Source of the DNA: Saccoglossus kowalevskii
Lineage: Eukaryota > Hemichordata > Enteropneusta > Harrimaniidae
Length of the DNA: 35,451 nucleotides
Direction of reading: 5' to 3'
Assembly (NCBI RefSeq): GCF_000003605.2
Contig: NW_003106459.1
Span: 1 to 35,451, forward strand
Part shown: in pieces, positions 1-23,447 of the stretch
Position numbering within the stretch: the first letter of the stretch is position 1
Layout of the letters: every line of letters begins with the position of its first letter
The notes under the pieces: generated by a model
Told to the model about the DNA's origin: nothing
Databases searched by the model: none
What the model saw: only the letters and a program-made list of their open reading frames with translations
Made by a program: the position numbers and the translations under genes

Positions 1-1500
1 TCAACTAACGATTCATATCGTATCTAGTCATCCTACAGACTGACGTAGTGCAACTGACGGTTCAAATAGTTATGTAGTCATCCATGCAGACTGATATGGT
101 TCTTCTGACGGTTCATATCGTTATTTAGTCATCCTTGCAGACTCTCATGGTTCAACTGACGGCTCATATCGTTATCTAGTCATCCTTGTAGACTGACATA
201 ATTCATCTGACGGTTCATATCCTTATCTAGTCATCCTTGCAGACTGTCGTAGTACAACTGACGGTTCATATCTGTATCTAAACATCCATGAAGACTGCCA
301 TAATTCAACTGATGGTTCATATCGTTATCTAGTCATCCTTGCAGACTGACGTAGTTCAACTGACGGTTCATATCTTTATCTAGTCATACTTGCAGACTGG
401 CATAGTTCAACTGACTGTTCATATCGTTATCTAGACATCCATGCTGACTGGCATAATTTACCTGACGGTTCATATCGTTATTTAGTCATCCTTGCAGACT
501 TGCATGGTTTACTGACGGTTCAGATCGTTATTTAGTCATCCATGCAGACTGACATAGTTCAATTGACGGTTCATATCGTTATCTAGTCATCCTTGCAGAC
601 AGACATAATTCAACTGACGGTTCATACCATTATCTAGTCATAATTGCAGACTGGCATAGTTGAACTGACGGTTAATATCGTTATTTAGTCATCCTTTCAG
701 ACTGGTAAAGTTCAACTGACGGTTCATATCGTTATTTAGCCATCCTTGCAGACTGACATAGTTCAACTGACGGATCATTTCGTTATTTAGTCGTCCATAC
801 AGACTGACATAGTTCAACTGACGGTTCATATCGTTATCTAGTCATCCTTGCAGACTGACATAGTTCTATTGACAATTCATATCTTTATTTAGTCATCCTT
901 GCCGACTGACATAGTTCTATTGACCATTCATATCGTTATTTATTCATCTTTGCAGACTGACATAGTTCTATTGAGAATTCATATCGTTATTTATTCATCC
1001 TTGCAGACTGGCATAGTTCTATTGACAATTCATATCGTTATTTAGTCATCCTTGCAGACTGACATAGTTCTATTGACGGTTCATATCGTTATCTAGTCAT
1101 CCTTGCAGACAGACATAATTCAACTGACGGTTCATACCATTATCTAGTCATAATTGCAGACTGGCATAGTTGACTGACGGTTATATCGTTATTTAGTCAT
1201 CCTTTCAGACTGACATAGTTCAACTGACAATTCATATCGTTTTTTAGTCATCCTGCAGACTGGCATGGTTCAACTAACGGTTCATATCGTTATTTAGTCA
1301 TCCTTGCTGACTGACATAGTTCAACTGACGGTTCATATCGTTATTTAGTCATCCATGCAGACTGGTATGGTTCTACTGACGGTGCATATCATTATCTAGT
1401 CATCCATGCAGACTGGAATGGTGCAATTGACGGTTCATTTCGTTGTCTAGCCATCCTTGCAGACTGGTATGGTTCAACTGATGGTTCATATTGTTATTTA
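1..1500 (+). repeat. HOR family A copy, left-edge, rearranged (about 30 monomers)
   Basis: The window opens inside the monomer that follows the HOR marker. A-family words follow in order: GTGCAACTGACGG with AAATAGTTATG, TCGTAGTACAAC, CTGACTGTTCAT, AATTTACCTGACGG, GACAGACATAATTC, GGTTAATATCG, GATCATTTCG, and TTGAGAATTC at about 971. After 1060 a few earlier types (GACAGACATAATTC and its neighbour) appear a second time, so this copy carries an internal insertion. Six one-base deletions fall in this segment (near 20, 34, 508, 1172, 1184 and 1250), far more than anywhere else in the window. Confidence 0.85.
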
Positions 1501-2826
1501 GTCAGCTTTGCACACTGGCATGGTTCAACTGACGATTCATATCGTTATCTAGTCATTCTTACAGACTGACGTAGTGCAACTGACGGTTCAAATAGTTATG
1601 TAGTCATCCATGCAGACTGATATGGTTCTTCTGACGGTTCATATCGTTATTTAGTCATCCTTGTAGACTGACATAATTCATCTGACGGTTCATATCCTTA
1701 TCTAGTCATCCTTGCAGACTGTCGTAGTACAACTGACGGTTCATATCTTTATCTAAACATCCATGAAGACTGGCATAATTCAACTGATGGTTCATATCGT
1801 TATCTAGTCATCCTTGCAGACTGACGTAGTTCAACTGACGGTTCATATCTTTATCTAGTCATACTTGCAGACTAGCATAGTTCAACTGACTGTTGATATC
1901 GTTATCTAGACATCCATGCAGACTGGCATAATTTACCTGACGGTTCATATCGTTATTTAGTCATCCTTGCAGACTTGCATGGTGCTACTGACGGTTCAGA
2001 TCGTTATTTAGTCATCCATGCAGACTGACATAGTTCAATTGACGGTTCATATCGTTATCTAGTCATCCTTGCAGACAGACATAATTCAACTGACGGTTCA
2101 TACCATTATCAAGTCATAATTGCAGACTGGCATAGTTGAACTGACGGTTAATATCGTTATTTAGTCATCCTTTCAGACTGGTATAGTTCAACTGACGGTT
2201 CATATCTTTATTTAGCCATCCTTGCAGACTGACATAGTTCAACTGACGGATCATTTCGTTATTTAGTCGTCCATACAGACTGACATAGTTCAACTGACGG
2301 TTCATATCGTTATCTAGTCATCCTTGCAGACTGACATAGTTCTATTGACAATTCATATCTTTATTTAGTCATCCTTGCCGACTGACATAGTTCTATTGAC
2401 AATTCATATCGTTATTTATTCATCTTTGCAGACTGACATAGTTCTATTGAGAATTCATATCGTTATTTATTCATCCTTGCAGACTGGCATAGTTCTATTG
2501 ACAATTCATATCGTTATTTAGTCATCCTTGCAGACTGACATAGTTCTATTGACAATTCATATCGTTATTTAGTCATCCTTGCAGACTGGTATGGTTCAAC
2601 TGACGGTTCATATCGTTATGTCGTCATCCTTGCTGACTGACATAGTTCAACTGACGGTTCATATCGTTATTTAGTCATCCATGCAGACTGGTATGCTTCT
2701 ACTGACGGTTCATACCGTTATCTAGTCATCCATGCAGACTGGTATGGTGCAATTGACGGTTCATGTCGTTGTCTAGCCATCCTTGCAGACTGGTATGGTT
2801 CAACTGATGGTTCATATCGTTATTTA
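1501..2826 (+). repeat. HOR family A, most complete copy (26 monomers, 1,326 bp)
   Basis: This runs from one GTCAGCTTTGCACACTGG marker to the next and is exactly 26 x 51 bases. It is the cleanest A unit in the window and serves as reference. It lacks the CTCATGGTTCAAC monomer found near 140 and 28560, so the full A unit is probably 27 monomers. It has no 48-bp monomer and no CGTTAGTTAG monomer, which separates it from family B. The TTGAGAATTC monomer is at about 2447-2456. Confidence 0.88.
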
Positions 2827-3187
2827 GTCAGCTTTGCACACTGGCATGGTTCAACTGACGATTCATATCGTTATCTAGTCATTCTTACAGACTGACGTAG
2901 TTCAACTGACGGTTCAAATTGTTATCTAGTCATCCATGCAGACAGATATGGTTCTTCTGACGGTTCGTATCGTTATTTAGTCATCCTTGCAGACTCTCAT
3001 GGTTCAACTGACGGTTCATATCGTTATCTAGTTATCCTTGTAGACTGGCATAATTCATCTGACGATGTATATCCTTATCTAGTTATCCTTGCAGACTTAC
3101 GTTGTTCAACTGACGGTTCATATCTTTATCTAAACATCCATGTAGACTGGCATAATTCAACTGATGGTTCATATCGTTGTATAGTCA

Positions 3188-3241
3188 ACCTTGCAGACTG
3201 GCATAATTCAACTGACGGTTCATATCGTTATCTTATCCTTG
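3188..3241 (+). repeat. 48-bp monomer diagnostic of HOR B (first of 14)
   Basis: In this monomer type TATCTAGTCATCC is shortened to TATCTTATCC, a net loss of three bases, giving 48 instead of 51. Copies are seen near 3231, 4702, 8577, 10567, 11685, 13514, 15297, 18201, 19831, 21661, 23851, 25939, 31597 and 34397. Each is followed two monomers later by the CGTTAGTTAG type. It is absent from family A and from B copies with a deleted centre, so it tags complete B units. Confidence 0.85.
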
Positions 3242-4889
3242 CTGACTGGCATAGTTCAACTGACGGTTTATATCATTTTATAGTCATTCTTGCAGATCGG
3301 CATAGTTCAACTGACGGTTCAGATCGTTAGTTAGTCATCCTTGCAGACTGGCTTAGTACAACTGACGGTTTATGTCGTTATTTAGCCATACTTGCAGACT
3401 GGCATGGTTCAACTGACGATTCATATTGTTATCTAGTCATTCTTGCAGATTGACATAGTTCTATTGATGGTTCATATCGTTATCTAATCATCCTTGCAGA
3501 CTGACATAATTCAACTGACGGTTCATACCATTATCTAGTCATCATTGCAGACTGGCATAGTTGAACTGACGGTTCATATCATCATTTAGTCATCCTTGCT
3601 GACTGACATAGTTCAACTGACGGATCATATCATTATTTAGTCGTCCATGCAGACTGACATAGTTCAACTGACGGTTCATATCGTTATCTAGTCATCCTTG
3701 CATATTGGCATAGATCTATTGACGGTTCATATCGTTATTTAGTCATCCTTGCAGACTGACATAGTTCTATTGACAATTCATATCTTTATTTAGTCATCCT
3801 TGCAGACTGGCATAGTTCTATTGACAATTCATATCGTTATTTAGTCATCCTTGCAGACTGACATAGTTCTATTGACAATTCATATCGTTATTTAGTCATC
3901 GTTGCAGACTGGTATGGTTCAACTGACGGTTCATATCGTTATGTAGTCATCATTGCTGACTGACATAGTTCAACTGACGGTTCATATCGTTATTTAGTCA
4001 TCCATGCAGACTGACATAGTTCAACTGACGGTTCATATCGTTATCTAGTCATCCTTGCATATTGGCATAGTTCTATTGACGGTTCATATCGTTATTTAGT
4101 CATCCTTGCAGACTGACATAGTTCTATTGACAATTCATATCTTTATTTAGTCATCCTTGCAGACTGGCATAGTTCTATTGACAATTCATATCGTTATTTA
4201 GTCATCCTTGCAGACTGACATAGTTCTATTGACAATTCATATCGTTATTTAGTCATCCTTGCGGACTAGTATGGTTCAACTGACGGTTCATATCGTTATG
4301 TAGTCATCCTTGCTGACTGACATAGTTCAACTGACGGTTCATATCGTTATTTAGTCATTCTTACAGACTGACGTAGTTCAACTGACGGTTCAAATTGTTA
4401 TCTAGTCATCCATGCAGACTGATATGGTTCTTCTGACGGTTCGTATCGTTATTTAGTCATCCTTGCAGACTCTCATGGTTCAACTGACGGTTCATATCGT
4501 TATCTAGTCATCCTTGTAGACTGGCATAATTCATCTGACGATTCATATCCTTATCTAGTTATCCTTGCAGATTTACGTAGTTCAACTGACGGTTCATATC
4601 TTTATCTAAACATCCATGTAGACTGGCATAATTCAACTGATGGTTCATATCGTTGTATAGTCATCCTTGCAGACTGGCATAATTCAACTGACGGTTCATA
4701 TCGTTACCTTATCCTTGCTGACTGGCATAGTTCAACTGACGGTTTATATCATTTTATAGTCATTCTTGCAGATCGGCATAGTTCAACTGACGGTTCAGAT
4801 CGTTAGTTAGTCATCCTTGCAGACTGGCTTAGTACAACTGACGGTTTATGTCGTTATTTAACCATACTTGCAGACTGGCATGGTTCAAC

Positions 4890-5705
4890 TGACGATTCAT
4901 ATCGTTATCTAGTCATTCTTGCAGATTGACATAGTTCTATTGATGGTACATATCGTTATCTAATCATCCTTGCAGACTGACATAATTCAACTGACGGTTC
5001 ATACCATTATCTAGTCATCATTGCAGACTGGCATAGTTGAACTGACGGTTCATATCGTTATTTAGTCATCCTTGCTGACTGACATAGTTCAACTGACGGA
5101 TCATATCGTTATTTAGTCGTCCATGCAGACTGACATAGTTCAACTGACGGTTCATATCGTTATCTAGTCATCCTTGCATATTGGCATAGTTCTATTGACG
5201 GTTCATATCGTTATTTAGTCATCCTTGCAGACTGACATAGTTCTATTGACAATTCATATCTTTATTTAGTCATCCTTGCAGACTGGCATAGTTCTATTGA
5301 CGATTCATATCGTTATCTAGTCATTCTTGCAGATTGACATAGTTCTATTGATGGTACATATCGTTATCTAATCATCCTTGCAGACTGACATAATTCAACT
5401 GACGGTTCATACCATTATCTAGTCATCATTGCAGACTGGCATAGTTGAACTGACGGTTCATATCGTTATTTAGTCATCCTTGCTGACTGACATAGTTCAA
5501 CTGACGGATCATATCGTTATTTAGTCGTCCATGCAGACTGACATAGTTCAACTGACGGTTCATATCGTTATCTAGTCATCCTTGCATATTGGCATAGTTC
5601 TATTGACGGTTCATATCGTTATTTAGTCATCCTTGCAGACTGACATAGTTCTATTGACAATTCATATCTTTATTTAGTCATCCTTGCAGACTGGCATAGT
5701 TCTAT
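4890..5705 (+). repeat. 408-bp tandem duplication (two copies of 8 monomers)
   Basis: Copy 1 (about 4890-5297) and copy 2 (about 5298-5705) are head to tail at an offset of exactly 408 (8 x 51). Both carry the variant GATGGTACATATCG (4942 and 5350), which I did not see elsewhere. The junction monomer at about 5281-5331 is a hybrid: its left half is of the GGCATAGTTCTATTGAC type and its right half of the GACGATTCATATCG type. This is what an unequal exchange between different monomers leaves. Confidence 0.85.
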
Positions 5706-6033
5706 TGACAATTCATATCGTTATTTAGTCATCCTTGCAGACTGACATAGTTCTATTGACAATTCATATCGTTATTTAGTCATCCTTGCTGACTGACATA
5801 GTTCAACTGACGGTTCATATCGTTATTTAGTCATCCTTGCAGACTGGCATAGTTCAATTGACAATTCATATCGTTATTTAGTCATCCATGCAGACTGGTA
5901 TGGTTCTACTGACGGTTCATATCGTTATCTAGTCATCCATGCAGACTGGTATGGTGCAATTGACGGTTCATGTCGTTGTCTAGCCATCCTTGCAGACTGG
6001 TATGGTTCAACTGATGGTTCATATCGTTATTTA

Positions 6034-7104
6034 GTCAGCTTTGCACACTGGCATGATTCAACTGACGATTCATATCGTTATCTAGTCATTCTTACAGACT
6101 GACGTAGTTCAACTGACGGTTCAAATTGTTATCTAGTCATCCATGCAGACTGATATGGTTCTTCTGACGGTTCGTATCGTTATTTAGTCATCCTTGCAGA
6201 CTCTCATGGTTCAACTGACGGTTCATATCGTTATCTAGTCATCCTTGTAGACTGGCATAATTCATATGACGGTTCATATCCTTATCTAGTTATCCTTGCA
6301 GACTTACGTAGTTCAACTGACGGTTCATATCTTTATCTAAACATCCTTGCAGACTGGCTTAGTACAACTGACGGTTCATGTCGTTATTTAGCCATACTTG
6401 CAGACTGGCATGGTTCAACTGACGATTCATATCGTTATCTAGTCATTCTTGCAGATTGACATAGTTCTATTGATGGTTGATATCGTTATGTAATCATCCT
6501 TGCAGACTGACATAATTCAACTGACGGTTTATACCATTATCTAGTCATCATTGCAGACTGGCATATTTGAACTGACGGTTCATATCGTTATTTAGTCATC
6601 CTTGCTGACTGATATAGTTCAACAGACGGATCATGTCGTTATTTAGTCGTCCATGCAGACTGACATAGTTCAACTGACGGTTCATATCGTTATCTAGTCA
6701 TCCTTGCATATTGGCATAGTTATATTGACGGTTCATATCATTATTTATTCATCCTTGCAGACTGACATAGTTCTATTGACAATTCATATCTTTATTTAGT
6801 CATCCTTGCAGACTGGCATAGTTCTATTGACAATTCATATCGTTATTTAGTCATCCTTGCAGACTGACATAGTTCTATTGACAATTCATATCGTTATTTA
6901 GTCATCCTTGCCGACTGGTATGGTTCAACTGACGGTTCATATCGTTATGTAGTCATCCTTGCTGACTGACACAGTTCAACTGACGGTTCATATCGTTATT
7001 TAGTCATCCATGCAGACTGACATAGTTCAACTGACGGTTCATATCGTTATCTAGTCATCCTTGCATATTGGCATAGTTCTATTGACCGTTCATATCGTTA
7101 TTTA
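6034..7104 (+). repeat. HOR family B, internally deleted (21 monomers, 1,071 bp)
   Basis: The B order is followed to the CTAAACATCC monomer near 6340. It then jumps inside one monomer to CTTGCAGACTGGCTTAGTAC, skipping the CGTTGTATAG, 48-bp, TATCATTTTATAG and CGTTAGTTAG types. The segment ends early, with the GCATATTGGCATAG monomer fused to the marker monomer at about 7100. The length is exactly 21 x 51, consistent with loss of the 48-bp monomer. Confidence 0.82.
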
Positions 7105-8226
7105 GTCAGCTTTGCACACTGGCATGGTTCAACTGACGATTCATATCGTTATCTAGTCATTCTTACAGACTGACGTAGTGCAACTGACGGTTCAAATAGT
7201 TATGTAGTCATCCATGCAGACTGATATGGTTCTTCTGACGGTTCATATCGTTATTTAGTCATCCTTGCAGACTGGCATAGTTCAATTGACTGTTCATATC
7301 GTTATCTAGACATCCATGCAGACTGGCATAATTTACCTGACGGTTCATATCATTATTTAGTCATCCTTGCAGACTTGCATGGTTCTACTGACGGTTCAGA
7401 TCGTTATTTAGTCATCCATGCAGACTGACATAGTTCAATTGACGTTTCATATCTTTATCTATTCATCCTTGCAGACAGACATAATTCAACTGACGGTTCA
7501 TACCATTATCTAGTCATAATTGCAGACTGGCATAGTTGAACTGACGGTTAATATCGTTATTTAGTCATCCTTTCAGACTGGTATAGTTCAACTGACGGTT
7601 CATATCGTTATGTAGCCATCCTTGCAGACTGACATAGTTCAACTGACGGATCATTTCGTTATTTAGTCGTCCATACAGACTGACATAGTTCAACTGACGG
7701 TTCATATCGTTATCTAGTCATCCTTGCAGAGTGACATAGTTCTATTCGCAATTCATATCTTTATTTAGTCATCCTTGCCGACTGACATAGTTCTATTGAC
7801 AATTCATCTCGTTATTTATTCATCTTTGCAGACTGACATAGTTCTATTGAGAATTCATATCGTTATTTAGTCATCCTTGCAGACTGGTATAGTTCTATTG
7901 ACAATTCATATCGTTATTTAGTCATCCTTGCAGACTGACATAGTTCTATTGACAATTCATATCGTTATTTAGTCATCCTTGCAGACTGGTATGGTTCGAC
8001 TGACGGTTCATATCGTTATGCAGTCATCCTTGCTGACTGACATAGTTCAACTGACGGTTCAAATCGTTATTTAGTCGTCCATGCAGACTGGTATGGTTCT
8101 ACTGACGGTTCATATCGTTATCTAGTCATCCATGCAGACTGGTATGGTGCAATTGACGGTTCATGTCGTTATCTAGCCGTCCTTGCAGACTGGTATGGTT
8201 CAACTGATGGTTCATATCGTTATTTA
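7105..8226 (+). repeat. HOR family A, internally deleted (22 monomers, 1,122 bp)
   Basis: A-family words are present: AAATAGTTATG (about 7194), CTGACTG-type TTCAATTGACTG (7285), AATTTACC (7330), GGTTAATATCG (about 7547), CATTTCG (7652) and TTGAGAATTC (about 7847). Near 7260 the array jumps from the GATATGGTTCTTC monomer to the GGCATAGTTCAATTGACTG monomer. About five A monomers of the complete unit (the CTCATGG to TATCTTTATCTAG types) are therefore missing. The length is exactly 22 x 51. Confidence 0.82.
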
Positions 8227-10161
8227 GTCAGCTTTGCACACTGGCATGGTTCAACTGACGATTCATATCGTTATCTAGTCATTCTTACAGACTGACGTAG
8301 TTCAACTGATGGTTCAAATTGTTATCTAGTCATCCATGCAGACTGATATGGTTCTTCTGACGGTTCGTATCGTTATCTAGTCATCCTTGTAGACTGGCAT
8401 AATTCATCTGACGGTTCATATCCTTATCTAGTTATCCTTGCAGACTTACGTAGTTCAACTGACGGTTCATATCTTTATCTAAACATCCATGTAGACTGGC
8501 ATAATTCAACTGATGGTTCATATCGTTGTATAGTCATCCTTGCAGACTGGCATAATTCAACTGACGGTTCATATCGTTATCTTATCCTTGCTGACTGGCA
8601 TAGTTCAACTGACGGTTTATATCATTTTATAGTCATTCTTGCAGATCGGCATAGTTCAACTGACGGTTCAGATCGTTAGTTAGTCATCCTTGCAGACTGG
8701 CTTAGTACAACTGACGGTTTATGTCGTTATTTAGCCATACTTGCAGACTGGCATGGTTCAACTGACGATTCATATCGTTATCTAGTCATTCTTGCAGATT
8801 GACATAGTTCTATTGATGGTTCATATCGTTATCTAATCATCCTTGCAGACTGACATAATTCAACTGACGGTTCATAACATTATCTAGTCATCATTGCAGA
8901 CTGGCATAGTTGAACTGACGGTTCATATCGTTATTTAGTCATCCTTGCTGACTGACATAGTTCAACTGACGGATCATATCGTTATTTAGTCGTCCATGCA
9001 GATTGACATAGTTCAACTTACGGTTCATATCGTTATCTAGTCATCCTTGCATATTGGCATAGTTATATTGACGGTTCATATCGTTATTTATTCATCCTTG
9101 CAGACTGACATAGTTCTATTGACAATTCATATCTTTATTTAGTCATCCTTGCAGACTGACATAGTTCTATTGACAATTCATATCGTTATTTAGTCATCCT
9201 TGCAGACTGGTATGGTTCAACTGACGGTTCATATCTTTATGTAGTCATCCTTGCTGACTGACATAGTTCAACTGACGGTTCATATCGTTATTTAGTCATC
9301 CATGCAGACTGACATAGTTCAACTGACGGTTCATATCGTTATCTAGTCATCCTTGCATATTCGCATAGTTCTATTGACGGTTCATATCGTTATTTATTCA
9401 TCCTTGCAGACTGACATAGTTCTATTGACAATTCATATCTTTATTTAGTCATCCTTGCAGACTGGCATAGTTCTATTGACAATTCATATCGTTATTTAGT
9501 CATCCTTGCAGACTGACATAGTTCTATTGACAATTCATATCGTTATTTAGTCATCCTTGCAGACTGGTATGGTTCAACTGACGGTTCATATAGTTATGTA
9601 GTCATCCTTGCTGACTGACATAGTTCTATTGACAATTCATATCGTTATTTTGTCATCCTTGCAGACTGGTATGGTTCAACTGACGGTTCATATCGTTATC
9701 TAGTCATCCTTGCATATTCGCATAGTTCTATTGACGGTTCATATCGTTATTTAGTCATCCTTGCAGACTGACATAGTTCTATTGACAATTCATATCTTTA
9801 TTTAGTCATCCTTGCAGACTGGCATAGTTCTATTGACAATTCATATCGTTATTTAGTCATCCTTGCAGACTGACATAGTTCTATTGACAATTCATATCGT
9901 TATTTAGTCATCCTTGCAGACTGGTATGGTTCAACTGACGGTTCATATAGTTATGTAGTCATCCTTGCTGACTGACATAGTTCAACTGACGGTTCATATC
10001 GTTATTTAGTCATCCATGCAGACTGGTATGGTTCTACTGACGGTTCATATCGTTATCTAGTCATCCATGCAGACTGGTATGGTGCAATTGATTGTTCATG
10101 TCGTTGTCTAGCCATCCTTGCAGACTGGTATGATTCAACTGATGGTTCATATCGTTATTTA
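8227..10161 (+). repeat. HOR family B with duplicated tail (38 monomers)
   Basis: The B order includes the 48-bp monomer near 8577 and the CGTTAGTTAG monomer near 8675. The length, 1,935, is 38 x 51 minus 3. The excess over 26 monomers lies in repeats of the tail block (GCATATTGG or GCATATTCG, TATCTTTATTTAG, TATCGTTATGTAG types) between about 9040 and 10020. Confidence 0.85.
9355..10068 (+). repeat. 357-bp-offset tail duplication
   Basis: Two tail blocks start at about 9355 and 9712 (offset 7 x 51). Both carry GCATATTCGCATAG and the variant CATATAGTTATGTAG (near 9588 and 9945). The copies agree for roughly 260 bases and then differ in monomer composition. The duplication was therefore followed by a further exchange, or its unit ended there. 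Confidence 0.75.
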
Positions 10162-11278
10162 GTCAGCTTTGCACACTGGCATGGTTCAACTGACGATTCA
10201 TATCGTTATCTAGTCATTCTTACAGACTGACGTAGTTCATCTGACGGTTCAAATAGTTATCTAGTCATCCATGCAGACTGATATGGTTCTTCTGACGGTT
10301 CGTATCGTTATTTAGTCATCCTTGCAGACTCTCATGGTTCAACTGACGGTTCATATCGTTATCTAGTCATCCTTGCAGACTGGCATAATTCATCTGACGG
10401 TTCATATCCTTATCTAGTTATCCTTGCAGACTTACGTAGTTCAACTGACGGTTCATATCTTTATCTAAACATCCATGTAGACTGGCATAATTCAACTGAT
10501 GGTTCATATCGTTGTATAGTCATCCTTGCAGACTGGCATAATTCAACTGACGGTTCATATCGTTATCTTATCCTTGCTGACTGGCATAGTTCAACTGACG
10601 GTTTATATCATTTTATAGTCATTCTTGCAGATCGGCATAGTTCAACTGACGGTTCAGATCGTTAGTTAGTCATCCTTGCAGACTGGCTTAGTACAACTGA
10701 CGGTTCATGTCGTTATTTAGCCATACTTGCAGACTGGCATGGTTCAACTGACGATTCATATCGTTATCTAGTCATTCTTGCAGATTGACATAGTTCTATT
10801 GATGGTTCATATCATTATCTAATCATCCTTGCAGACTGACATAATTCAACTGACGGTTTATACCATTATCTAGTCATCATTGCAGACTGGCATATTTGAA
10901 CTGACGGTTCATATCGTTATTTAGTCATCCTTGCTGACTGACATAGTTCAACAGACGGATCATATCGTTATTTAGTCGTCCATGCAGACTGACATAATTC
11001 AACTGACGGTTCATATCGTATCTAGTCATCCTTGCAGACTGACGTAGTTCAACAGTGGTTCATATCTTTATCTAGTCATTCATGAAGACTGGCATAATTC
11101 AACTGATGGTTCATATCGTTATCTAGTCATCCATGCAGACTGGTATGGTTCTACTGACGGTTCATATCGTTATCTAGTCATCCATGCAGACTGGTATGGT
11201 GCAATTGACGGTTCATGTCGTTGTCTAGCCATCCTTGCAGACTGGTATGGTTCAACTGATGGTTCATATCCTTATTTA
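10162..11278 (+). repeat. HOR family B, truncated, ending in an A-like hybrid (22 monomers)
   Basis: The B order runs to the GACGGATCAT monomer at about 10954. From about 10990 it continues into monomers resembling A types (GACGTAGTTC with TATCTTTATCTAG, then CATGAAGACTGG) before returning to the shared GGTATGGTTCTAC type at 11140. Two one-base deletions sit in this hybrid zone, near 11016 and 11052. The length, 1,117, is 22 x 51 minus 5, made up of 3 for the 48-bp monomer and 2 for these deletions. Confidence 0.8.
10282..10662 (+). other. Representative stop-free, Met-free block recurring in HOR B (not a gene)
   Basis: Between an in-frame TGA at 10279-10281 and TAG at 10663-10665 there are 127 stop-free codons reading as eight diverged copies of a 17-residue repeat around STDGSYRYLVILAD. 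There is no ATG in frame. An equal-sized block recurs at 11399-11779, with related blocks in the other complete B copies. The stops that bound it are themselves fixed parts of monomers 5/6 and 13. I read this as a by-product of a 51-base period in a stretch where the Trp-position codon is TGG, TCT, TTA or CGG instead of TGA, not as a protein. Confidence 0.6.
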
Positions 11279-13111
11279 GTCAGCTTTGCACACTGGCATG
11301 GTTCAACTGACGATTCGTATCGTTATCTAGTCATTCTTGCAGACTGACGTAGTTCAACTGACGGTTCAAATTGTTATCTAGTCATCCATGCAGACTGATA
11401 TGGTTCTTCTGACGGTTCGTATCGTTATTTAGTCATCCTTGCAGACTCTCATGGTTCAACTGACGGTTCATATCGTTATCTAGTCATCCTTGTAGACTGG
11501 CATAATTCATCTGACGATTCATATCCTTATCTAGTTATCCTTGCAGACTTACGTAGTTCAACTGACGGTTCATATCTTTATCTAAACATCCATGTAGACT
11601 GGCATAATTCAACTGATGGTTCATATCGTAGTATAGTCATCCTTGCAGACTGGCATAATTCAACTGACGGTTCATATCGTTATCTTATCCTTGCTGACTG
11701 GCATAGTTCAACTGACGGTTTATATCATTTTATAGTCATTCTTGCAGATCGGCATTGTTCAACTGACGGTTCAGATCGTTAGTTAGTCATCCTTGCAGAC
11801 TGGCTTAGTACAACTGACGGTTTATGTCGTTATTTAGCCATACTTGCAGACTGGCATGGTTCAACTGACGATTCATATCGTTATCTAGTCATTCTTGCAG
11901 ATTGACATAGTTCTATTGATGGTTCATATCGTTATCTAATCATCCTTGCAGACTGACATAATTCAACTGACGGTTCATACCATTATCTAGTCATCATTGC
12001 AGACTGGCATAGTTGAACTGACGGTTCATATCGTTATTTAGTCATCCTTGCTGACTGACATAGTTCAACTGACGGATCATATCGTTATTTAGTCGTCCAT
12101 GCAGACTGACATAGTTCAACTGACGGTTCATATCGTTATCTAGTCATCCTTGCATATTGGCATATTTATATTGACGGTTCATATCGTTATTTAGTCATCC
12201 TTACAGACTGACATAGTTCTATTGACAATTCATATCTTTATTTAGTCATCCTTGCAGACTGGCATAGTTCTATTGACAATTCATATCGTTATTTAGTCAT
12301 CCTTGCAGACTGACATAGTTCTATTGACAATTCATATCGTTATTTAGTCATCCTTGCAGACTGGTATGGTTCAACTGACGGTTCATATCGTTATGTAGTC
12401 ATCCTTGCTGACTGACATAGTTCAACTGACGGTTCATATCGTTATTTAGTCATCCATGCAGACTGGTATGGTTCTACTGACGGTTCATATCGTTATCTAG
12501 TCATCCATGCAGACTGGTATGGTGCAATTGATGGTTCATGTCGTTGTCTAGCCATCCTTGCAGACTGGTATGGTTCAACTGACGGTTCATATCGTTATCT
12601 AGTCATCCTTGCAGACTGACATAGTTCTATTGACAATTCATATTTTTATTTAGTCATCCTTGCCGACTGACATAGTTCTATTGACAATTCATATCGTTAT
12701 TTATTCATCTTTGCAGACTGACATTGTTCTATTGAGAATTCATATCGTTATTTAGTCATCCTTGCAGACTGGCATAGTTCTATTGACAATTCATATCGTT
12801 ATATTGTCATCCTTGCAGACTGACATAGTTCTATTGACAATTCATATCGTTATTTAGTCATCCTTGCAGACTGGTATGGTTCAACTGACGTTTCATATCG
12901 TTATGTAGTCATCCTTGCTGACTGACATAGTTCAACTGACGGTTCATATCGTTATTTAGTCATCCATGCAGACTGGTATGGTTCTACTGACGGTTCATAT
13001 CGTTATCTAGTCATCCATGCAGACTGGTATGGTGCAATTGACGGTTCATATCGTTGTCTAGCCATCCTTGCAGACTGGTATGGTTCAACTGATGGTTCAT
13101 ATCCTTATTTA
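11279..13111 (+). repeat. HOR B with grafted A tail (36 monomers, 1,833 bp)
   Basis: B order with the 48-bp monomer near 11685 and CGTTAGTTAG near 11777. A complete B tail runs from about 12070 to 12580. A second tail of A type follows from about 12590, including CTTGCCGACTG and TTGAGAATTC (site at 12736). The length equals 36 x 51 minus 3. The A tail carries variants CATTGTTCTATTGAG, GTTATATTGTC and GACGTTTCATATCG that recur only at 17,270-17,600. Confidence 0.82.
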
Positions 13112-13660
13112 GTCAGCTTTGCACACTGGCATGGTTCAACTGACGATTCATATCGTAATCTAGTCATTCTTGCAGACTGACGTAGTTCAACTGACGGTTC
13201 AAATTGTTATCTAGTCATCCATGCAGACTGATATGGTTCTTCTGACGGTTCGTATCGTTATTTAGTCATCCTTGCAGACTCTCATGGTTCAACTGACGGT
13301 TCATATCGTTATCTAGTCATCCTTGTAGACTGGCATAATTCATCTGACGATTCATATCCTTATCTAGTTATCCTTGCAGACTTACGTAGTTCAACTGACG
13401 GTTCATATCTTTATCTAAACATCCATGTAGACTGGAATAATTCAACTGATGGTTCATATCGTTGTATAGTCATCCTTGCAGACTGGCATAATTCAATTGA
13501 CGGTTCATATCGTTATCTTATCCTTGCTGACTGGCATAGTTCAACTGACGGTTTATATCATTTTATAGTCATTCTTGCAGAGCGGCATAGTTCAACTGAC
13601 GGTTCAGATCGTTAGTTAGTCATCCTTGCAGACTGGCTTAGTACAACTGACTGTTTATGT
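12220..13660 (+). repeat. Duplicated block, copy 1 (offset 4,686 to about 16906-18346)
   Basis: Rare variants recur at a constant offset of 4,686. They include CATTGTTCTATTGAG (12723 and 17409), GAATTC (12736 and 17422) and AGAGCGGCATAG (about 13579 and 18265), plus TTATATTGTCATCC, GACGTTTCATATCG and CTGACTGTTTATG. 4,686 is 92 x 51 minus 6, as two intervening 48-bp monomers predict. The match breaks near 13660, where this copy lost one monomer (CTGACTGTTTATG fused to TATCTAGTCATTC). Confidence 0.8.
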
Positions 13661-14944
13661 CGTTATCTAGTCATTCTTGCAGATTGACATAGTTCTATTG
13701 ATGGTTCATATCGTTATCTAATCATCCTTGCAGAGTGGCATAGTTGAACTGACGGTTCATATCGTTATTTAGTCATCCTTTCAGACTGGTATAGTTCAAC
13801 TGACGGTTCATATCGTTATTTAGCCATCCTTGCAGACTGACATAGTTCAACTGACGGATCATTTCGTTATTTAGTCGTCCATACAGACTGACATAGTTCA
13901 ACTGACGGTTCATATCGTTATCTAGTCATCCTTGCAGACTGACATAGTTCTATTGACAATTCATATCTTTATTTAGTCATCCTTGCCGACTGACATAGTT
14001 GTATTGACAATTCATATCGTTATTTATTCATCTTTGCAGAATGACATAGTTCTATTGAGAATTCATATCGTTATTTAGTCATCCTTGCAGACTGGCATAG
14101 TTCTATTGACAATTCATATCGTTATTTAGTCATCCTTGCAGACTGACATAGTTCTATTGACAATTCATATCGTTATTTAGTCATCCTTGCAGACTGGTAT
14201 GGTTCAACTGACGGTTCATATCGTTATGTAGTCATCCTTGCTGACTGACATAGTTCAACTGACGGTTCATATCGTTATTTAGTCATCCTTTCAGACTGGT
14301 ATAGTTCAACTGACGGTTCATATCGTTATTTAGCCATCCTTGCAGACTGACATAGTTCAACTGACGGATCATTTCGTTATTTAGTCGTCCATACAGACTG
14401 ACATAGTTCAACTGACGGTTCATATCGTTATCTAGTCATCCTTGCAGACTGACATAGTTCTATTGACAATTCATATCTTTATTTAGTCATCCTTGCCGAC
14501 TGACATAGTTGTATTGACAATTCATATCGTTATTTATTCATCTTTGCAGACTGACATAGTTCTATTGAGAATTCATATCGTTATTTAGTCATCCTTGCAG
14601 ACTGGCATAGTTCTATTGACAATTCATATCGTTATTTAGTCATCCTTGCAGACTGACATAGTTCTATTGACAATTCATATCGTTATTTAGTCATCCTTGC
14701 AGACTGGTATGGTTCAACTGACGGTTCATATCGTTATGTAGTCATCCTTGCTGACTGACATAGTTCAACTGATGGTTCATATCGTTATTTAGTCATCCAT
14801 GCAGACTGGTATGGTTCTACTGACGGTTCATATCGTTATCTAGTCATCCATGCAGACTGGTATGGTGCAATTGACGGTTCATGTCGTTGTCTAGCCATCC
14901 TTGCAGACTGGTATGGTTCAACTGATGGTTCATATCCTTATTTA
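13112..14944 (+). repeat. HOR B with two tandem A tails (36 monomers, 1,833 bp)
   Basis: B types run to about 13735, where a GCAGAGTGGCATAG monomer leads into A-type tail words (CTTTCAGACTGGTATAG, TTTAGCCATCC, CATTTCG, CTTGCCGACTG, TTGAGAATTC). That A tail occurs twice, starting at about 13779 and 14289. The length matches the preceding segment exactly although the composition differs. Confidence 0.82.
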
Positions 14945-16190
14945 GTCAGCTTTGCACACTGGCATGGTTCAACTGACGATTCATATCGTTATCTAGTCAT
15001 TCTTACAGACTGACGTAGTTCAACTGACGGTTCAAATTGTTATCTAGTCATCCATGCAGACTGATATGGTTCTTCTGACGGTTCGTATCGTTATTTAGTC
15101 ATCCTTGCAGACTCTCATGGTTCAACTGACGATTCATATCCTTATCTAGTTATCCTTGCAGACTTACGTAGTTCAACTGACGGTTCATATCTTTTTCTAA
15201 ACATCTATGTAGACTGGCATAATTCAACTGATGGTTCATATCGTTGTATAGTCATCCTTGCAGACTGGCATAATTCAACTGACGGTTCATATCGTTATCT
15301 TATCCTTGCTGACTGGCATAGTTCAACTGACGGTTTATATCATTTTATAGTCATTCTTGCAGATCGGCATTGTTCAACTGACGGTTCAGATCGTTAGTTA
15401 GTCATCCTTGCAGACTGGCTTAGTACAACTGACGGTTTATGTCGTTATTTAGCCATACTTGCAGACTGGCATGGTTCAACTGACGATTCATATCGTTATC
15501 TAGTCATTCTTGCAGATTGACATAGTTCTATTGATGGTTCATATCGTTATCTAATCATCCTTGCAGACTGACATAATTCAACTGACGGTTCATACCATTA
15601 TCTAGTCATCATTGCAGACTGGCATAGTTGAACTGACGGTTCATATCGTTATTTAGTCATCCTTGCTGACTGACATAGTTCAACTGACGGATCATATCGT
15701 TATTTAGTCGTCCATGCAGACTGACATAGTTCAACTGACGGTTCATATCGTTATCTAGTCATCCTTGCATATTGGCATATTTATATTGACGGTTCATATC
15801 GTTATTTAGTCATCCTTACAGACTGACATAGTTCTATTGACAATTCATATCTTTATTTAGTCATCCTTGCAGACTGGCATAGTTCTATTGACAATTCATA
15901 TCGTTATTTAGTCATCCTTGCAGACTGACATAGTTCTATTGACAATTCATATCGTTATTTAGTCATCCTTGCAGACTGGTATGGTTCAACTGACGGTTCA
16001 TATCGTTATGTAGTCATCCTTGCTGACTGACATAGTTCAACTGACGGTTCATATCGTTATTTAGTCATCCATGCAGACTGACATAGTTCAACTGACGGTT
16101 CATATCGTTATCTAGTCATCCTTGCATATTCGCATAGTTCTATTGACGGTTCATATCGTTATTTAGTCATCCTTGCAGACTGACATAGTT
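13759..16190 (+). repeat. Long-range duplicated block, copy 1 (about 2.43 kb; partner 32861-35290)
   Basis: Sequence and rare variants match the block at 32861-35290 at a constant offset of 19,102. The offset drops to 19,100 after two one-base deletions in the partner (near 34070 and 34171). Shared rare marks are GCAGAATGACATAG (14039 and 33141), GTTGTATTGAC and CTTTTTCTAAACATCTATG (15191 and 34291). By eye I count only about ten differences. The block contains the 510-bp A-tail dimer, so that dimer formed first. Confidence 0.88.
13779..14798 (+). repeat. 510-bp tandem duplication of an A tail
   Basis: Two 10-monomer units (about 13779-14288 and 14289-14798) lie at an offset of exactly 510. 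Paired marks are CTTTCAGACTGGTATAG (13779 and 14289) and GAATTC (14059 and 14569). They differ at GCAGAATGAC in unit 1 against GCAGACTGAC in unit 2. The same dimer, with the same difference, is present at 32881-33900. Confidence 0.87.
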
Positions 16191-17797
16191 CTATTGACAA
16201 TTCATATCTTTATTTAGTCATCCTTGCAGACTGGCATAGTTCTATTGACAATTCATATCGTTATTTAGTCATCCTTGCAGACTGACATAGTTCTATTGAC
16301 AATTCATATCGTTATTTAGTCATCCTTGCAGACTGGTATGGTTCAACTGACGGTTCATATCGTTATGTAGTCATCCTTGCTGACTGACATAGTTCAACTG
16401 ACGGTTCATATCGTTATTTAGTCGTCCATGCAGACTGACATAGTTCAACTGACGGTTCATATCGTTATCTAGTCATCCTTGCATATTGGCATATTTATAT
16501 TGACGGTTCATATCGTTATTTAGTCATCCTTACAGACTGACATAGTTCTATTGACAATTCATATCTTTATTTAGTCATCCTTGCAGACTGGCATAGTTCT
16601 ATTGACAATTCATATCGTTATTTAGTCATCCTTGCAGACTGACATAGTTCTATTGACAATTCATATCGTTATTTAGTCATCCTTGCAGACTGGTATGGTT
16701 CAACTGACGGTTCATATCGTTATGTAGTCATCCTTGCTGACTGACATAGTTCAACTGACGGTTCATATCGTTATTTAGTCATCCATGCAGACTGACATAG
16801 TTCAACTGACGGTTCATATCGTTATCTAGTCATCCTTGCATATTCGCATAGTTCTATTGACGGTTCATATCGTTATTTAGTCATCCTTGCAGACTGACAT
16901 AGTTCTATTGACAATTCATATCTTTATTTAGTCATCCTTGCAGACTGGCATAATTCTATTGACAATTCATATCGTTATTTAGTCATCCTTGCAGACTGAC
17001 ATAGTTCTATTGACAATTCATATCGTTATTTAGTCATCCTTGCAGACTGGTATGGTTCAACTGACGGTTCATATCGTTATGTAGTCATCCTTGCTGACTG
17101 ACATAGTTCAACTGACGGTTCATATCGTTATTTAGTCATCCATGCAGACTGGTATGGTTCTACTGACGGTTCATATCGTTATCTAGTCATCCATGCAGAC
17201 TGGTATGGTGCAATTGATGGTTCATGTCGTTGTCTAGCCATCCTTGCAGACTGGTATGGTTCAACTGACGGTTCATATCGTTATCTAGTCATCCTTGCAG
17301 ACTGACATAGTTCGATTGACAATTCATATTTTTATTTAGTCATCCTTGCCGACTGACATAGTTCTATTGACAATTCATATCGTTATTTATTCATCTTTGC
17401 AGACTGACATTGTTCTATTGAGAATTCATATCGTTATTTAGTCATCCTTGCAGACTGGCATAGTTCTATTGACAATTCATATCGTTATATTGTCATCCTT
17501 GCAGACTGACATAGTTCTATTGACAATTCATATCGTTATTTAGTCATCCTTGCAGACTGGTATGGTTCAACTGACGTTTCATATCGTTATGTAGTCATCC
17601 TTGCTGACTGACATAGTTCAACTGACGGTTCATATCGTTATTTAGTCATCCATGCAGACTGGTATGGTTCTACTGACGGTTCATATCGTTATCTAGTCAT
17701 CCATGCAGACTGGTATGGTGCAATTGACGGTTCATGTCGTTGTCTAGCCATCCTTGCAGACTGGTATGGTTCAACTGATGGTTCATATCCTCATTTA
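14945..17797 (+). repeat. HOR B with heavily amplified tail and an A tail (56 monomers)
   Basis: The B order includes the 48-bp monomer near 15297 and CGTTAGTTAG near 15390, followed by repeated passes through the tail types to about 17150. An A tail then starts at about 17275. The length, 2,853, is 56 x 51 minus 3. The excess is explained by the 714-bp tandem duplication listed separately. Confidence 0.83.
15690..17117 (+). repeat. 714-bp tandem duplication in HOR tail (14 monomers per unit)
   Basis: ATTGGCATATTTATATTGACGG occurs near 15771 and 16485 (offset 714 = 14 x 51). GCATATTCGCATAG near 16125 and 16839 keeps the same offset, as does CCTTACAGACTG. Unit edges are only approximate because the flanking monomers are themselves repeats. 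One private difference is CATAATTC for CATAGTTC near 16950 in the second unit. Confidence 0.8.
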
Positions 17798-18346
17798 GTC
17801 AGCTTTGCACACTGGCATGGTTCAACTGACGATTCATATCGTTATCTAGTCATTCTTGCAGACTGACGTAGTTCAACTGACGGTTCAAATTGTTATCTAG
17901 TCATCCATGCAGACTGATATGGTTCTTCTGACGGTTCGTATCGTTATTTAGTCATCCTTGCAGACTCTCATGGTTCAACTGACGGTTCATATCATTATCT
18001 AGTCATCCTTGTAGACTGGCATAATTCATCTGACGATTCATATCCTTATCTAGTTATCCTTGCAGACTTACGTAGTTCAACTGACGGTTCATATCTTTAT
18101 CTAAACATCCATGTAGACTGGCATAATTCAACTGATGGTTCATATCGTTGTATAGTCATCCTTGCAGACTGGCATAATTCAATTGACGGTTCATATCGTT
18201 ATCTTATCCTTGCTGACTGGCATAGTTCAACTGACGGTTTATATCATTTTATAGTCATTCTTGCAGAGCGGCATAGTTCAACTGACGGTTCAGATCGTTA
18301 GTTAGTCATCCTTGCAGACTGGCTTAGTACAACTGACTGTTTATGT
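16906..18346 (+). repeat. Duplicated block, copy 2 (offset 4,686 from about 12220-13660)
   Basis: This is the partner of 12220-13660 and carries the same private variants (CATTGTTCTATTGAG, TTATATTGTC, GACGTTTCATATCG, AGAGCGGCATAG, CTGACTGTTTATG). It retains the monomer missing from copy 1 at the right edge. The AGAGCGGCATAG and CTGACTGTTTATG variants recur at 23,920-24,000, so at least part of this block exists in three copies. Confidence 0.8.
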
Positions 18347-19426
18347 CGTTATTTAGCCATACTTGCAGACTGGCATGGTTCAACTGACGATTCATATCGT
18401 TATCTAGTCATTCTTGCAGATTGACATATTTCTATTGATGGTTCATATCGTTATCTAATCATCCTTGCAGACTGGCATAGTTGAACTGACGGTTCATATC
18501 GTTATTTAGTCATCCTTGCTGACTGACATAGTTCAACTGACGGATCATATCGTTATTTAGTCGTCCATGCAGATTGACATAGTTCAACTGACGGTTCATA
18601 TCGTTATCTAGTCATCCTTGCATATTGGCATAGTTATATTGACGGTTCATATCGTTATTTAGTCATCCTTGCAGACTGACATAGTTCTATTGACAATTCA
18701 TATCTTTATTTAGTCATCCTTGCAGACTGGCATAGTTCTATTGACAATTCATATCGTTATTTAGTCATCCTTGCAGACTGACATAGTTCTATTGACAATT
18801 CATATCGGTATTTAGTCATCCTTGCAGACTGGTATGGTTCAACTGACGGTTCATATCGTTATGTAGTCATCCTTGCTGACTGACATAGTTCAACTGACGG
18901 TTCATATCGTTATTTAGTCATCCATGCAGACTGACATAGTTCAACTGACGGTTCATATCGTTATCTAGTCATCCTTGCATATTCGCATAGTTCTATTGAC
19001 GGTTCATATCGTTATTTACTCATCCTTGCAGACTGACATAGTCCTATTGACAATTCATATCTTTATTTAGTCATCCTTGCAGACTGGCATAGTTCTATTG
19101 ACAATTCATATCGTTATTTAGTCATCCTTGCAGACTGACATAGTTCTATTGACAATTCATATCGTTATTTAGTCATCCTTGCAGACTGGTATGGTTCAAC
19201 TGACGGTTCATATCGTTATGTAGTCATCCTTGCTGACTGACATAGTTCAACTGACGGTTCATATCGTTATTTAGTCATCCATGCAGATTGGTATGGTTCT
19301 ACTGACGGTTCATATCATTATCTAGTCATCCATGCAGACTGGTATGGTGCAATTGATGGTTCATGTCGTTGTCTAGCCATCCTTGCAGACTGGTATGGTT
19401 CAACTGATGGTTCATATCGTTATTTA
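17798..19426 (+). repeat. HOR family B copy (32 monomers)
   Basis: Near-complete B order with the 48-bp monomer at about 18201 and CGTTAGTTAG at about 18297. The ATACCATTATC monomer is skipped near 18465, where the ATTGATGG type runs directly into GGCATAGTTGAAC. Tail types are repeated from 18590 to 19290. The length, 1,629, is 32 x 51 minus 3. Confidence 0.83.
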
Positions 19427-20596
19427 GTCAGCTTTGCACACTGGCATGGTTCAACTGACGATTCATATCGTTATATAGTCATTCTTACAGACTGACGTAG
19501 TTCAACTGACGGTTCAAATTGTTATCTAGTCATCCATGCAGACTGATATGGTACTTCTGACGGTTCGTATCGTTATTTAGTCATCCTTGCAGACTCTCAT
19601 GGTTCAACTGACGGTTCATATCGTTATCTAGTCATCCTTGTAGACTGGCATAATTCATCTGACGGTTCATATCCTTATCTAGTTATCCTTGCAGACTTAC
19701 GTAGTTCAACTGACGGTTCATATCGTTATCTAAATATCCATGTAGACTGGCATAATTCAACTGATGGTTCATATCGTTGTATAGTCATCCTTGCAGACTG
19801 GCATAATTCAACTGACGGTTCATATCGTTATCTTATCCTTGCTGACTGGCATAGTTCAACTGACGGTTTATATCATTTTATAGTCATTCTTGCAGATCGG
19901 CATAGTTCAACTGACGGTTCAGATCGTTAGTTAGTCATCCTTGCAGACTGGCTTAGTACAACTGACGGTTCATGTCGTTATTTAGCCATACTTGCAGACT
20001 GGCATGGTTCAACTGACGATTCATATCATTATCTAGTCATTCTTGCAGATTGACATAGTTCTATTGATGGTTCATATCGTTATCTAGTCATCATTGCAGA
20101 CTGGCATATTTGAACTGACGGTTCATATCGTTATTTAGTCATCCTTGCTGACTGACATAGTTCAACAGACGGATCATATGGTTATTTAGTCGTCCATGCA
20201 GACTGACATAGTTCAACTGACGGTTCATATCGTTATCTAGTCATCCTTGCATATTGGCATAGTTCTATTGACGGTTCATATCGTTATTTAGTCATCCTTG
20301 CAGACTGACATAGTTCTATTGACAATTCATATCTTTATTTAGTCATCCTTGCAGACTGGCATAGTTCTATTGACAATTCATATCGTTATTTAGTCATCCC
20401 TGCAGACTGACATAGTTCTATTGACAATTCATATCGTTATTTAGTCATCCTTGCAGACTGGTATGGTTCAACTGATGGTTCATATCGTTATGTAGTCATC
20501 CTTGCTGACTGACATAGTTCAACTGACGGTTCATATCGTTATCTAGTCATCCTTGCATATTGGCATAGTTCTATTGACGGTTCATATCGTTATTTA
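19427..20596 (+). repeat. HOR family B copy, tail truncated (23 monomers)
   Basis: B order with the 48-bp monomer near 19831 and CGTTAGTTAG near 19926. One monomer is lost near 20085 (an ATTGATGG type fused to a CATCATTGCAG type). At about 20590 the GCATATTGGCATAG monomer runs straight into the marker monomer, skipping the tail. The same fusion is seen at about 7100, so the two junctions may share an origin. Confidence 0.8.
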
Positions 20597-21106
20597 GTCA
20601 GCTTTGCACACTGGCATGGTTCAACTGACGATTCATATCGTTATCTAGTCATTCTTACAGACAGACATAATTCAACTGACGGTTCATACCATTATCTAGT
20701 CATAATTGCAGACTGGCATAGTTGAACTGACGGTTAATATCGTTATTTAGTCATCCTTGCAGACTGGCATAGTTCTATTGACAATTCATATCGTTATTTA
20801 GTCATCCTTGCAGACTGACATAGTTCTATTGACAATTCATATCGTTATTTAGTCATCCTTGCAGACTGGTATGGTTCAACTGACGGTTCATATCGTTATG
20901 TAGTCATCCTTGCTGACTGACATAGTTCAACTGACGGTTCATATCGTTATTTAGTCATCCATGCAGACTGGTATGGTTCTACTGACGGTTCATATCGTTA
21001 TCTAGTCATCCATACAGACTGGTATGGTGCAATTGACGGTTCATGTCGTTGTCTAGCCATCCTTGCAGACTGGTATGGTTCAACTGATGGTTCATATCCT
21101 TATTTC
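20597..21106 (+). repeat. Shortest marker interval: 10-monomer A/B hybrid (510 bp)
   Basis: After the marker monomer the array jumps near 20660 to the A-family types GACAGACATAATTC and GGTTAATATCG. It then goes to the shared CTATTGACAATTC tail types and back to the three monomers preceding the next marker. The length is exactly 10 x 51. It shows that A pieces can be inserted into B without loss of register. Confidence 0.82.
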
Positions 21107-22427
21107 GTCAGCTTTGCACACTGGCATGGTTCAACTGACGATTCATATCGTTATCTAGTCATTCTTACAGACTGGTGTGGTTCAACTGACGGTTCAAATT
21201 GTTATCTAGTCATCCATGCAGACTGATATGATTCTTCTGACGGTTCGTATCGTTATTTAGTCATCCTTGCAGACTCTCATGGTTCAACTGACCGTTCATA
21301 TCGTTATCTAGTCATCCTTGTAGACTGGCATAATTCATCTGACGATTCATATCCTTATCTAGTTATCCTTGCAGACTGCATCATTCTTCTGACGGTTCGT
21401 ATCGTTATTTAGTCATCCTTGCAGACTCTCATGGTTTAACTGACGGTTCATATCGTTATCTAGTCATCCTTGTAGACTGGCATAATTCATCTGACGATTC
21501 ATATCCTTATCTAGTTATCCTTGCAGACTTACGTAGTTCAACTGACGGTTCATATCTTTATCTAAACATCCTGTAGACTGGCATAATTCAACTGATGGTT
21601 CATATCGTTGTATAGTCATCCTTGCAGACTGGCATAATTCAACTGACGGTTCATATCGTTATCTTATCCTTGCTGACTGGCATAGTTCAACTGACGGTTT
21701 ATATCATTTTATAGTCATTCTTGCAGATCGGCATAGTTCAACTGACGGTTCAGATCGTTAGTTAGTCATCCTTGCAGACTGGCTTAGTACAACTGACGGT
21801 TTATGTCGTTATTTAGCCATACTTGCAGACTGGCATGGTTCAACTGACGATTCATATCGTTATCTAGTCATTCTTGCAGATTGACATAGTTCTATTGATG
21901 GTTCATATCGTTATCTAATCATCCTTGCAGACTGACATAATTCAACTGACGGTTCATACCATTATCTAGTCATCATTGCAGACTGGCATAGTTGAACTGA
22001 TGGTTCATATCGATATTTAGTCATACTTGCAGACTGACATAGTTCTATTGACAATTCATATCTTTATTTAGTCATCCTTGCAGACTGGCATAGTTCTATT
22101 GACAATTCATATCGTTATTTAGTCATCCTTGCAGACTGACATAGTTCTATTGACAATTCATATCGTTATTTAGTCATCCTTGCAGACTGGTATGGTTCAA
22201 CTGACGGTTCATATCGTTATGTAGTCATCGTTGCTGACTGACATAGTTCAACTGACGGTTCATATCGTTATTTAGTCATCCATGCAGACTGGTATGGTTC
22301 TACTGATGGTTCATATCGTTATCTAGTCATCCATGCAGACTGGTATGGTGCAATTGACGGTTCATGTCGTTGTCTAGCCATCCTTGCAGACAGGTATGGT
22401 TCAACTGATGGTTCATATCGTTATTTA
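21107..22427 (+). repeat. HOR family B with an out-of-register 152-bp duplication (26 monomers)
   Basis: B order with the 48-bp monomer near 21661 and CGTTAGTTAG near 21767. Three monomers (GTATCGTTATTTAG, CTCATGG and TCTGACGATTC types) occur twice, at 21231 and again at 21383. The offset is 152, one base short of three monomers. The junction near 21375-21385 reads GACTGCATCATTC, unlike any other monomer. CTAAACATCCTG near 21565 lacks one base. The length, 1,321, is 26 x 51 minus 5. Confidence 0.82.
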
Positions 22428-23200: not shown

Positions 23201-23447
23201 TGCAGACAGGTATGGTTCAACTGACGGTTCATATCGTTATGTAGTCATCCTTGCTGACTGACATAGTTCAACTGACGGTTCATATCGTTATTTAGTCATC
23301 CATGCAGACTGGTATGGTTCTACTGACGGTTCATATCGTTATCTAGTCATCCATGCAGACTGGTATGGTGCAATTGACGGTTCATGTCGTTGTCTAGCCA
23401 TCCTTGCAGACTGGTATGGTTCAACTGATGGTTCATATCCTTATTTA
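22428..23447 (+). repeat. HOR B with an A insert replacing its centre (20 monomers, 1,020 bp)
   Basis: B types run to about 22800. A hybrid monomer then carries CTGACTGTTCATATCG and TAGACATCC, followed by the A type AATTTACCTGACGG, after which B resumes at GACGGATCAT (about 22917). The 48-bp monomer and CGTTAGTTAG monomer are absent. The length is therefore exactly 20 x 51. Confidence 0.83.

Follow-up and report, generated by a model that had tools for sequence, protein, structure and literature searches.

A 51-bp satellite array built from two recurring units

The window analysed here is the entire contig C118 (35,451 bp) of a 572-Mb assembly of 4,830 contigs, and a 51-bp satellite organised in longer recurring units fills it completely. 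Tandem Repeats Finder returned one period-51 array covering positions 1 to 35,451, both contig ends included. An earlier note on this DNA had described two higher-order repeat (HOR) families, A and B, at positions 1501-6033; the feature is real but is not confined to that interval. Delimited by wraparound alignment, the array contains 697 monomers of one family placed head to tail, as in an HOR array. Most are 51 bp long (670 monomers); the others measure 48 bp (14), 50 bp (nine), 49 bp (two) and 52 bp (one), with a 9-bp piece at one end. There are 257 distinct aligned monomer sequences, with a mean pairwise identity of 83.7%, the 9-bp end counted in.

The 51-bp register is kept window-wide. 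Its sole exceptions are the 48-bp type and 12 monomers with a length change of one or two bases, and a search of the window for out-of-register junctions found none beyond these. The register is therefore unshifted at every junction. Four of the 12 length-changed monomers lie in the first 1.3 kb (1-1270) and two near 34.1 kb (34020-34170); lower consensus quality is perhaps the cause near the contig ends.

The composition of the two units agreed well with the earlier note. Unit B consists of 26 monomers and 1,323 bp, as seen in two copies (Table 1). Unit A had been put at about 27 monomers, with a cleanest copy of 1,326 bp lacking one. This copy is one monomer short because the monomer at 1627 is an A7/A8 hybrid (0 mismatches), and the full A unit therefore has 27 monomers. 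The first and last monomers are shared, as had been stated: the refined consensus is common to both units at A1 = B1, A5 = B5 and A25-27 = B24-26. The six motifs assigned to the centres of A and B all occur in the window (CTGACTGTTCAT four times, AATTTACC five, GGTTAATATCG eight, GAATTC 12, CGTTAGTTAG 14 and GGCTTAGTAC 14 times), but GGTTAATATCG, found in A18, and GAATTC, found in A24, both belong to the right shoulder of A and not to its centre. All 14 copies of the 48-bp monomer have types T and W as their neighbours.

Table 1. Features of the satellite array in the window
Feature	Position	Strand	Remarks
51-bp satellite array, 697 monomers, single orientation	1..35451	+	open at both contig ends
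Cleanest A unit, 26 monomers, 1,326 bp	1321..2646	+	one hybrid in place of A7 and A8
B unit, 26 monomers, 1,323 bp	2647..3969	+	two monomers, at 3055 and 3562, in rare forms
First of 14 copies of the 48-bp monomer (B12, type V)	3208..3255	+	each copy flanked by types T and W
Hybrid monomer, B10 to column 29 then B14	6313..6363	+	0 mismatches
B-to-A hybrid monomer, B22 then A4	7078..7128	+	1 mismatch
B unit, 26 monomers, 1,323 bp	11099..12421	+	sole copy with all 26 monomers in common types
1,651-bp segment with A/B junctions	12016..13666	+	recurs at 16702-18352, 14 mismatches (99.15%)
1,233-bp segment	13736..14968	+	recurs at 32838-34070, 2 mismatches (99.84%)
10-monomer sub-unit A18-A27 (510 bp), two in tandem	13745..14764	+	
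7-monomer sub-unit B20-B26 (357 bp), four in tandem	15680..17107	+	B1/B20 hybrid junctions at three joins
Long A block, 37 monomers	27494..29381	+	
Sub-unit A18-A27, two in tandem, second site	32847..33866	+	

Monomers follow each other in a fixed order

Clustering of the monomers by average linkage, cut at 2.5 differences, gave 83 clusters, of which 34 have at least five members and together hold 622 of the 697 monomers. The modal successor was taken in 555 of 696 steps, compared with 132 (standard deviation 4, maximum 143) in 200 shuffles. The result is carried by this fixed order and not by clean clusters, since some monomer types are only 2 bases apart and the clusters alone are not clean.

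The same order was evaluated with a copying model, whose majority-refined reference comprises 53 monomers (27 of A and 26 of B). On 35,496 aligned columns the model required 72 switches and 329 mismatches (0.9%). Five shuffled monomer orders resulted in 615-631 switches; when the reference order was permuted inside A and inside B, three trials gave 602-674. The switch count stayed within 77-66 when the switch penalty went from 1e-3 to 1e-8. Single-unit models were rejected: B alone needed 102 switches and 647 mismatches, and A alone 185 and 1,247, respectively.

For the 625 of 696 monomers left unbroken by the parse, identity was 98.3% at the same position of the unit (5,043 pairs), 85.3% between adjacent monomers and 84.0% between different positions. 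Same-position identity was nearly constant with distance (98.7% below 1 kb and 98.2% beyond 27 kb; rho 0.03). Copies of the unit are thus far more alike than neighbouring monomers and their monomer order is fixed, which strongly supports an HOR organisation in which one array contains two recurring units. Complete units are few, the majority being truncated or spliced. In a first-pass parse, only five unbroken stretches reach about 26-30 monomers (starting at 2488, 9674, 11124, 22864 and 27498), and the rest are shorter.

The pairwise differences between monomers are not bimodal; their histogram climbs without interruption from 1 to its maximum at 9. This is how a continuum of 51-bp monomers devoid of genuine higher-order structure would look, the outcome that the earlier note had opposed to its own proposal. 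However, the fixed order, the two levels of identity and the 72 switches against more than 600 all contradict such a continuum, as do the shuffles, and its probability is negligible. The clustering and order string suggested in that note thus gave two recurring strings of 26-27 monomers, although distances were not bimodal and complete units scarce.

Units A and B resemble each other outside a central core

Aligned as monomer strings, the middles of A and B scored 42, whereas permuting the order of B gave a mean of -3.6 and a maximum of 20 (500 permutations). With the refined consensus sequences, 25 positions of A and B pair, and B13, A18 and A22 are unpaired. Along the left side of the paired positions the differences per 51 bases are 0, 3, 1, 1, 0, 3, 1, 2, 4, 2 and 5; at the four paired core positions they rise to 6, 8, 8 and 7, and on the right side they are 4, 1, 3, 2, 3, 4, 2, 0, 0 and 0. 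Hence no more than 5 of 51 bases differ at 21 of the 25 paired positions (range 0-5), and the unrelated monomers are confined to the central four of A or five of B. The most fitting description of A and B is as two variants derived from one ancestral higher-order unit, with shared ends, diverged shoulders and an unrelated core. The "two families" of the earlier note, which do exist as two recurring units, are better described as two recombining variants of one unit.

The unrelated centre could also point to an insertion or fusion that joined two independent units of one satellite, because the four paired core positions show 6-8 differences in 51 and the nearest match is never at the paired position. 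Such an origin is unlikely: both flanks are homologous in order well past permutation, and the ends are identical.

Monomers specific to A number 141 and those specific to B 388, and 167 are shared. The specific monomers fall into 28 alternating blocks (shuffled mean 207, minimum 180; 500 shuffles), in agreement with the alternation previously noticed. Six of the 14 A blocks have at least ten monomers, three have three and five have one. Within-position diversity did not differ between A (1.5%, 17 positions) and B (1.7%, 18 positions; Mann-Whitney p = 0.48).

Most junction monomers with clean neighbours fit hybrids of their predicted parents

The 72 switches of the copying model correspond to seven A24-to-B23 passages at homologous positions and 65 discontinuities. 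The latter are of 48 kinds, the most frequent of which, B1-to-B20, occurs eight times. The parents of each junction were predicted from the two monomers on either side, and 43 of the 65 junctions have clean neighbours. At 36 of these 43, the junction monomer is a hybrid of the left and right parents with at most 1 mismatch. Only 5% or fewer of 400 random parent pairs fitted equally well at 38 of them, and at 32 the hybrid was better than any single reference monomer. Several junctions between A and B recur at an identical column: B3|A20 twice, B1|A14 three times, A14|B19 twice and B22|A4 twice. Longer mosaics and shorter sub-units are repeated as well (Table 1).

Alternation of A and B might reflect two alleles of one locus, between which the assembler switched haplotypes. 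The assembly is fragmented (4,830 contigs), tandem arrays fill the whole 10 kb read in three of 20 further contigs sampled, and the within-position diversity of A and B is similar. Against this, A/B junctions recur at the same column and mosaics of 1.2-1.7 kb are repeated with 2 and 14 mismatches. An identical false join would have to repeat itself, and an allelic origin by way of the assembler is therefore decidedly unlikely.

Probable in-register exchange between misaligned copies

We consider it very probable that the window is a non-coding HOR array of about 26-27 x 51 bp (around 1.3 kb) with sister variants A and B, reshaped by in-register exchange. Misaligned copies would exchange in register by homology, through unequal crossing-over or conversion-like repair. 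Such exchange would delete, duplicate and splice blocks and leave hybrid monomers at the joins, and the mosaics so formed would then be duplicated again. Hybrid junction monomers together with a kept register are what in-register unequal exchange would leave. The fixed order, both reference units, the A/B homology around the core, the hybrid monomers and the recurring junctions are direct observations; that the hybrids arose by exchange, and not by a different form of template switching, is inferred, as is the way in which A and B came together.

Besides the gapless histogram, several points weigh against this reading. The shoulder monomers A11, A19, A21 and A23 are closest to a B type at another position. 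The junctions under test were picked by the parser itself; among the 43 with clean neighbours, the hybrid only equalled the best single monomer in eight cases and was worse in three, and seven need 3-7 mismatches as hybrids (six at 9625, seven at 25560). The other 22 of the 65 junctions lack clean neighbours, clusters of adjacent junctions among them, and many fit no simple hybrid (11 mismatches at 11049). Template switching at replication would also yield in-register hybrids. Finally, local assembly errors are possible, the array being known from assembled sequence alone.

A length of 51 bp (3 x 17) would also suit a protein built of 17-residue repeats. One frame of the consensus is open, and 332 of the 648 monomers examined are stop-free in it; the array at the edge of contig C1521 contains two stop-free frames, of 67 and 152 codons. 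However, the other 316 monomers are interrupted there by a stop, variability is not raised at third codon positions (0.110, 0.106, 0.088), and synonymous changes account for 13 of 67 substitutions vs 34 of 153 possible. The Pfam matches of the C1521 frame were all under the curated cut-offs. With stops in the best frame and no third-position or synonymous excess, a coding origin was rejected and is highly improbable. Known RNA families gave 0 matches at the gathering threshold in the window and in C1521:1-10000.

Related arrays elsewhere in the genome

Satellites are often under-assembled. An exact 28-base pattern matched 79 times, 74 times in C118, three in C3453 and two in C947 (reverse strand). 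Viral contigs gave 0 matches to a 28-base pattern. A 32-base pattern with at most 3 mismatches gave 757 forward and 171 reverse matches, and its reversed control 0. Among the matches listed, this pattern occurs in C118, C947, C1521 and C3453 only, of the 4,830 contigs. The counts are 558 for C118, 22 for C1521 and 65 for the initial 5 kb of C3453, and extrapolating from them assigns nearly all matches of the pattern to these four contigs.

The first 5 kb of C3453 (13,968 bp) contain ordered strings of their own, in most cases spaced by about 25-30 monomers or by multiples of that number; of the 98 monomers read there, 0 are identical to any monomer of the window. In C947, a trio of variant sites (19492/19594/19709) recurs, its inner spacing unchanged, at 22480, 24166 and 26209. 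Over 992 bp, C947 (994 bases compared) and C3453 are 90.6% identical, while either is about 82-83% identical to C118. From these comparisons, C3453 and C947 carry a unit different from that of C118. Unlike the window, the related arrays leave the 51-bp register, with a 13-bp insertion in C947 (18907-19900, reverse strand) and monomers of 41-45 bp in C3453 (1-5000).

C1521 represents an array edge: 9.2 kb of other sequence precede 1.35 kb of diverged 51-bp monomers at the contig end, which partly follow a two-monomer pattern. The non-satellite part includes pieces of an element resembling a long interspersed nuclear element (RVT_1, E = 1.5e-18; endonuclease matches just under the cut-off), and a second reverse-transcriptase-like piece fell under the cut-off (RVT_1, E = 0.015). 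The stop-free frames of 67 and 152 codons lie in the diverged repeats at 9194-9856, with the 17-residue repeat.

The 51-bp consensus had no BLAST match in the parts of the first 10 kb read from 20 other contigs. Three of these, C119, C3000 and C4500, consist over their first 10 kb wholly of 55-, 44- and 47-bp repeats, respectively, and BLAST at E up to 1 detected no mutual similarity between the 55-, 44-, 47- and 51-bp consensus monomers. Ordered repeats beyond shuffling are present in the 44- and 47-bp arrays, where 0.66 and 0.58 of the monomers lie on long diagonals vs at most 0.05 in ten shuffles. The 55-bp array is too uniform for a comparison of order (0.97 vs up to 0.94 shuffled). Because three mutually dissimilar satellites (51, 44 and 47 bp) show ordered repeats, satellites of this genome may in general be organised in higher-order units.

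Other contigs of the assembly

Tandem arrays of transfer RNA (tRNA) genes lie in the first 10 kb of three further contigs: C117 (26 genes called, 25 of them tRNA-Pro, with 461-bp units over part), C500 (36 called, 33 tRNA-Ser, units of about 261 bp) and C2500 (39 called, 38 tRNA-His, units of about 262 bp). In C4000:1-10000, a stop-free frame of 978 codons resembles, by eye only, a leucine-rich Toll-like receptor.

C4830 is the mitochondrial contig (17,037 bp) and has a 141-bp tandem repeat of 4.8 copies at 1-671. In the 10 kb read, nd5 adjoins cob, and nd6 lies on the minus strand between tRNA genes near the small ribosomal RNA. The nd5 frame, which contains 16 AAA codons, was checked against solved structures and the remaining frames were named by eye. 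According to PMC2697986, nd5 and cob are adjacent in hemichordates, Xenoturbella and also birds, nd6 stands between them in chordates, and the order nd5, nd6, cob is found in 15 of 20 echinoderm genomes. The same paper gives AAA as absent in Balanoglossus carnosus and as coding for lysine in Saccoglossus. A hemichordate, probably an acorn worm, is therefore the likely source of the assembly.

Comparison with known systems

No paper on hemichordate higher-order repeats was found in the literature searched, which is partial; judged from titles and the starts of abstracts in that partial literature, none of the work on Saccoglossus satellite DNA deals with hemichordate satellites. According to a survey of diverse animals and plants, 76 of the 171 species with Sanger data have clear HORs, but units of at least three monomers were rarely seen, which it attributes to read length (PMC4053949). 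Single switchgrass reads never combined both repeat variants in that survey, whereas A and B are here spliced together within a few kb (PMC4053949). As51 of characiform fishes, likened here by description only, shares an AT-rich 51-bp monomer with our array but is tied to 45S ribosomal DNA (PMC13170303). In the cascading HORs of human chromosome 3 alpha satellite, a canonical unit is accompanied by shorter recurring sub-units, comparable to the 7-mer and 10-mer described above (PMC11157248). Their definition, however, requires repeated monomer types within the canonical copy (PMC11157248), which only B23 and B24 approach: they share one cluster, yet their refined consensus sequences differ.

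A unit of 26-27 monomers, each of 51 bp, in a probable invertebrate deuterostome, with some three dozen well-placed hybrids in 35 kb, provides a compact record of rearrangement. It shows which joins occur and that the register is kept, and it documents the renewed duplication of mosaics made from both variants. If this holds, it points to in-register exchange as the origin of higher-order structure on many satellites, independently of alpha-satellite monomer length or protein-binding sites.

Primate centromeres provide the best-known examples of long higher-order units. Like the alpha-satellite HORs found there, the array combines diverged monomers in a fixed order with unit copies that are about 98% identical here; deletion and duplication variants of the unit lie in one array, and other arrays of the monomer family have other units. 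It is conceivable, though doubtful, that a hemichordate has independently evolved an alpha-satellite-like system, with putative centromeric arrays of 44-51-bp satellites, long locus-specific units and two diverged unit variants that recombine freely in one array. The CENP-B box has the motif TTCGNNNNANNCGGG. This motif is not enriched in the window, where three matches, each with 2 mismatches and none closer, compare with 28 expected from shuffles. The monomer is 51 bp long here, not 171 bp as in alpha satellite (PMC4585704), most units are incomplete and the host is probably a hemichordate. The resemblance to centromeric alpha satellite drawn in the earlier note thus stands for the HOR organisation and fails for the monomer length and the CENP-B box, so that the likeness is, by analogy, one of organisation only.

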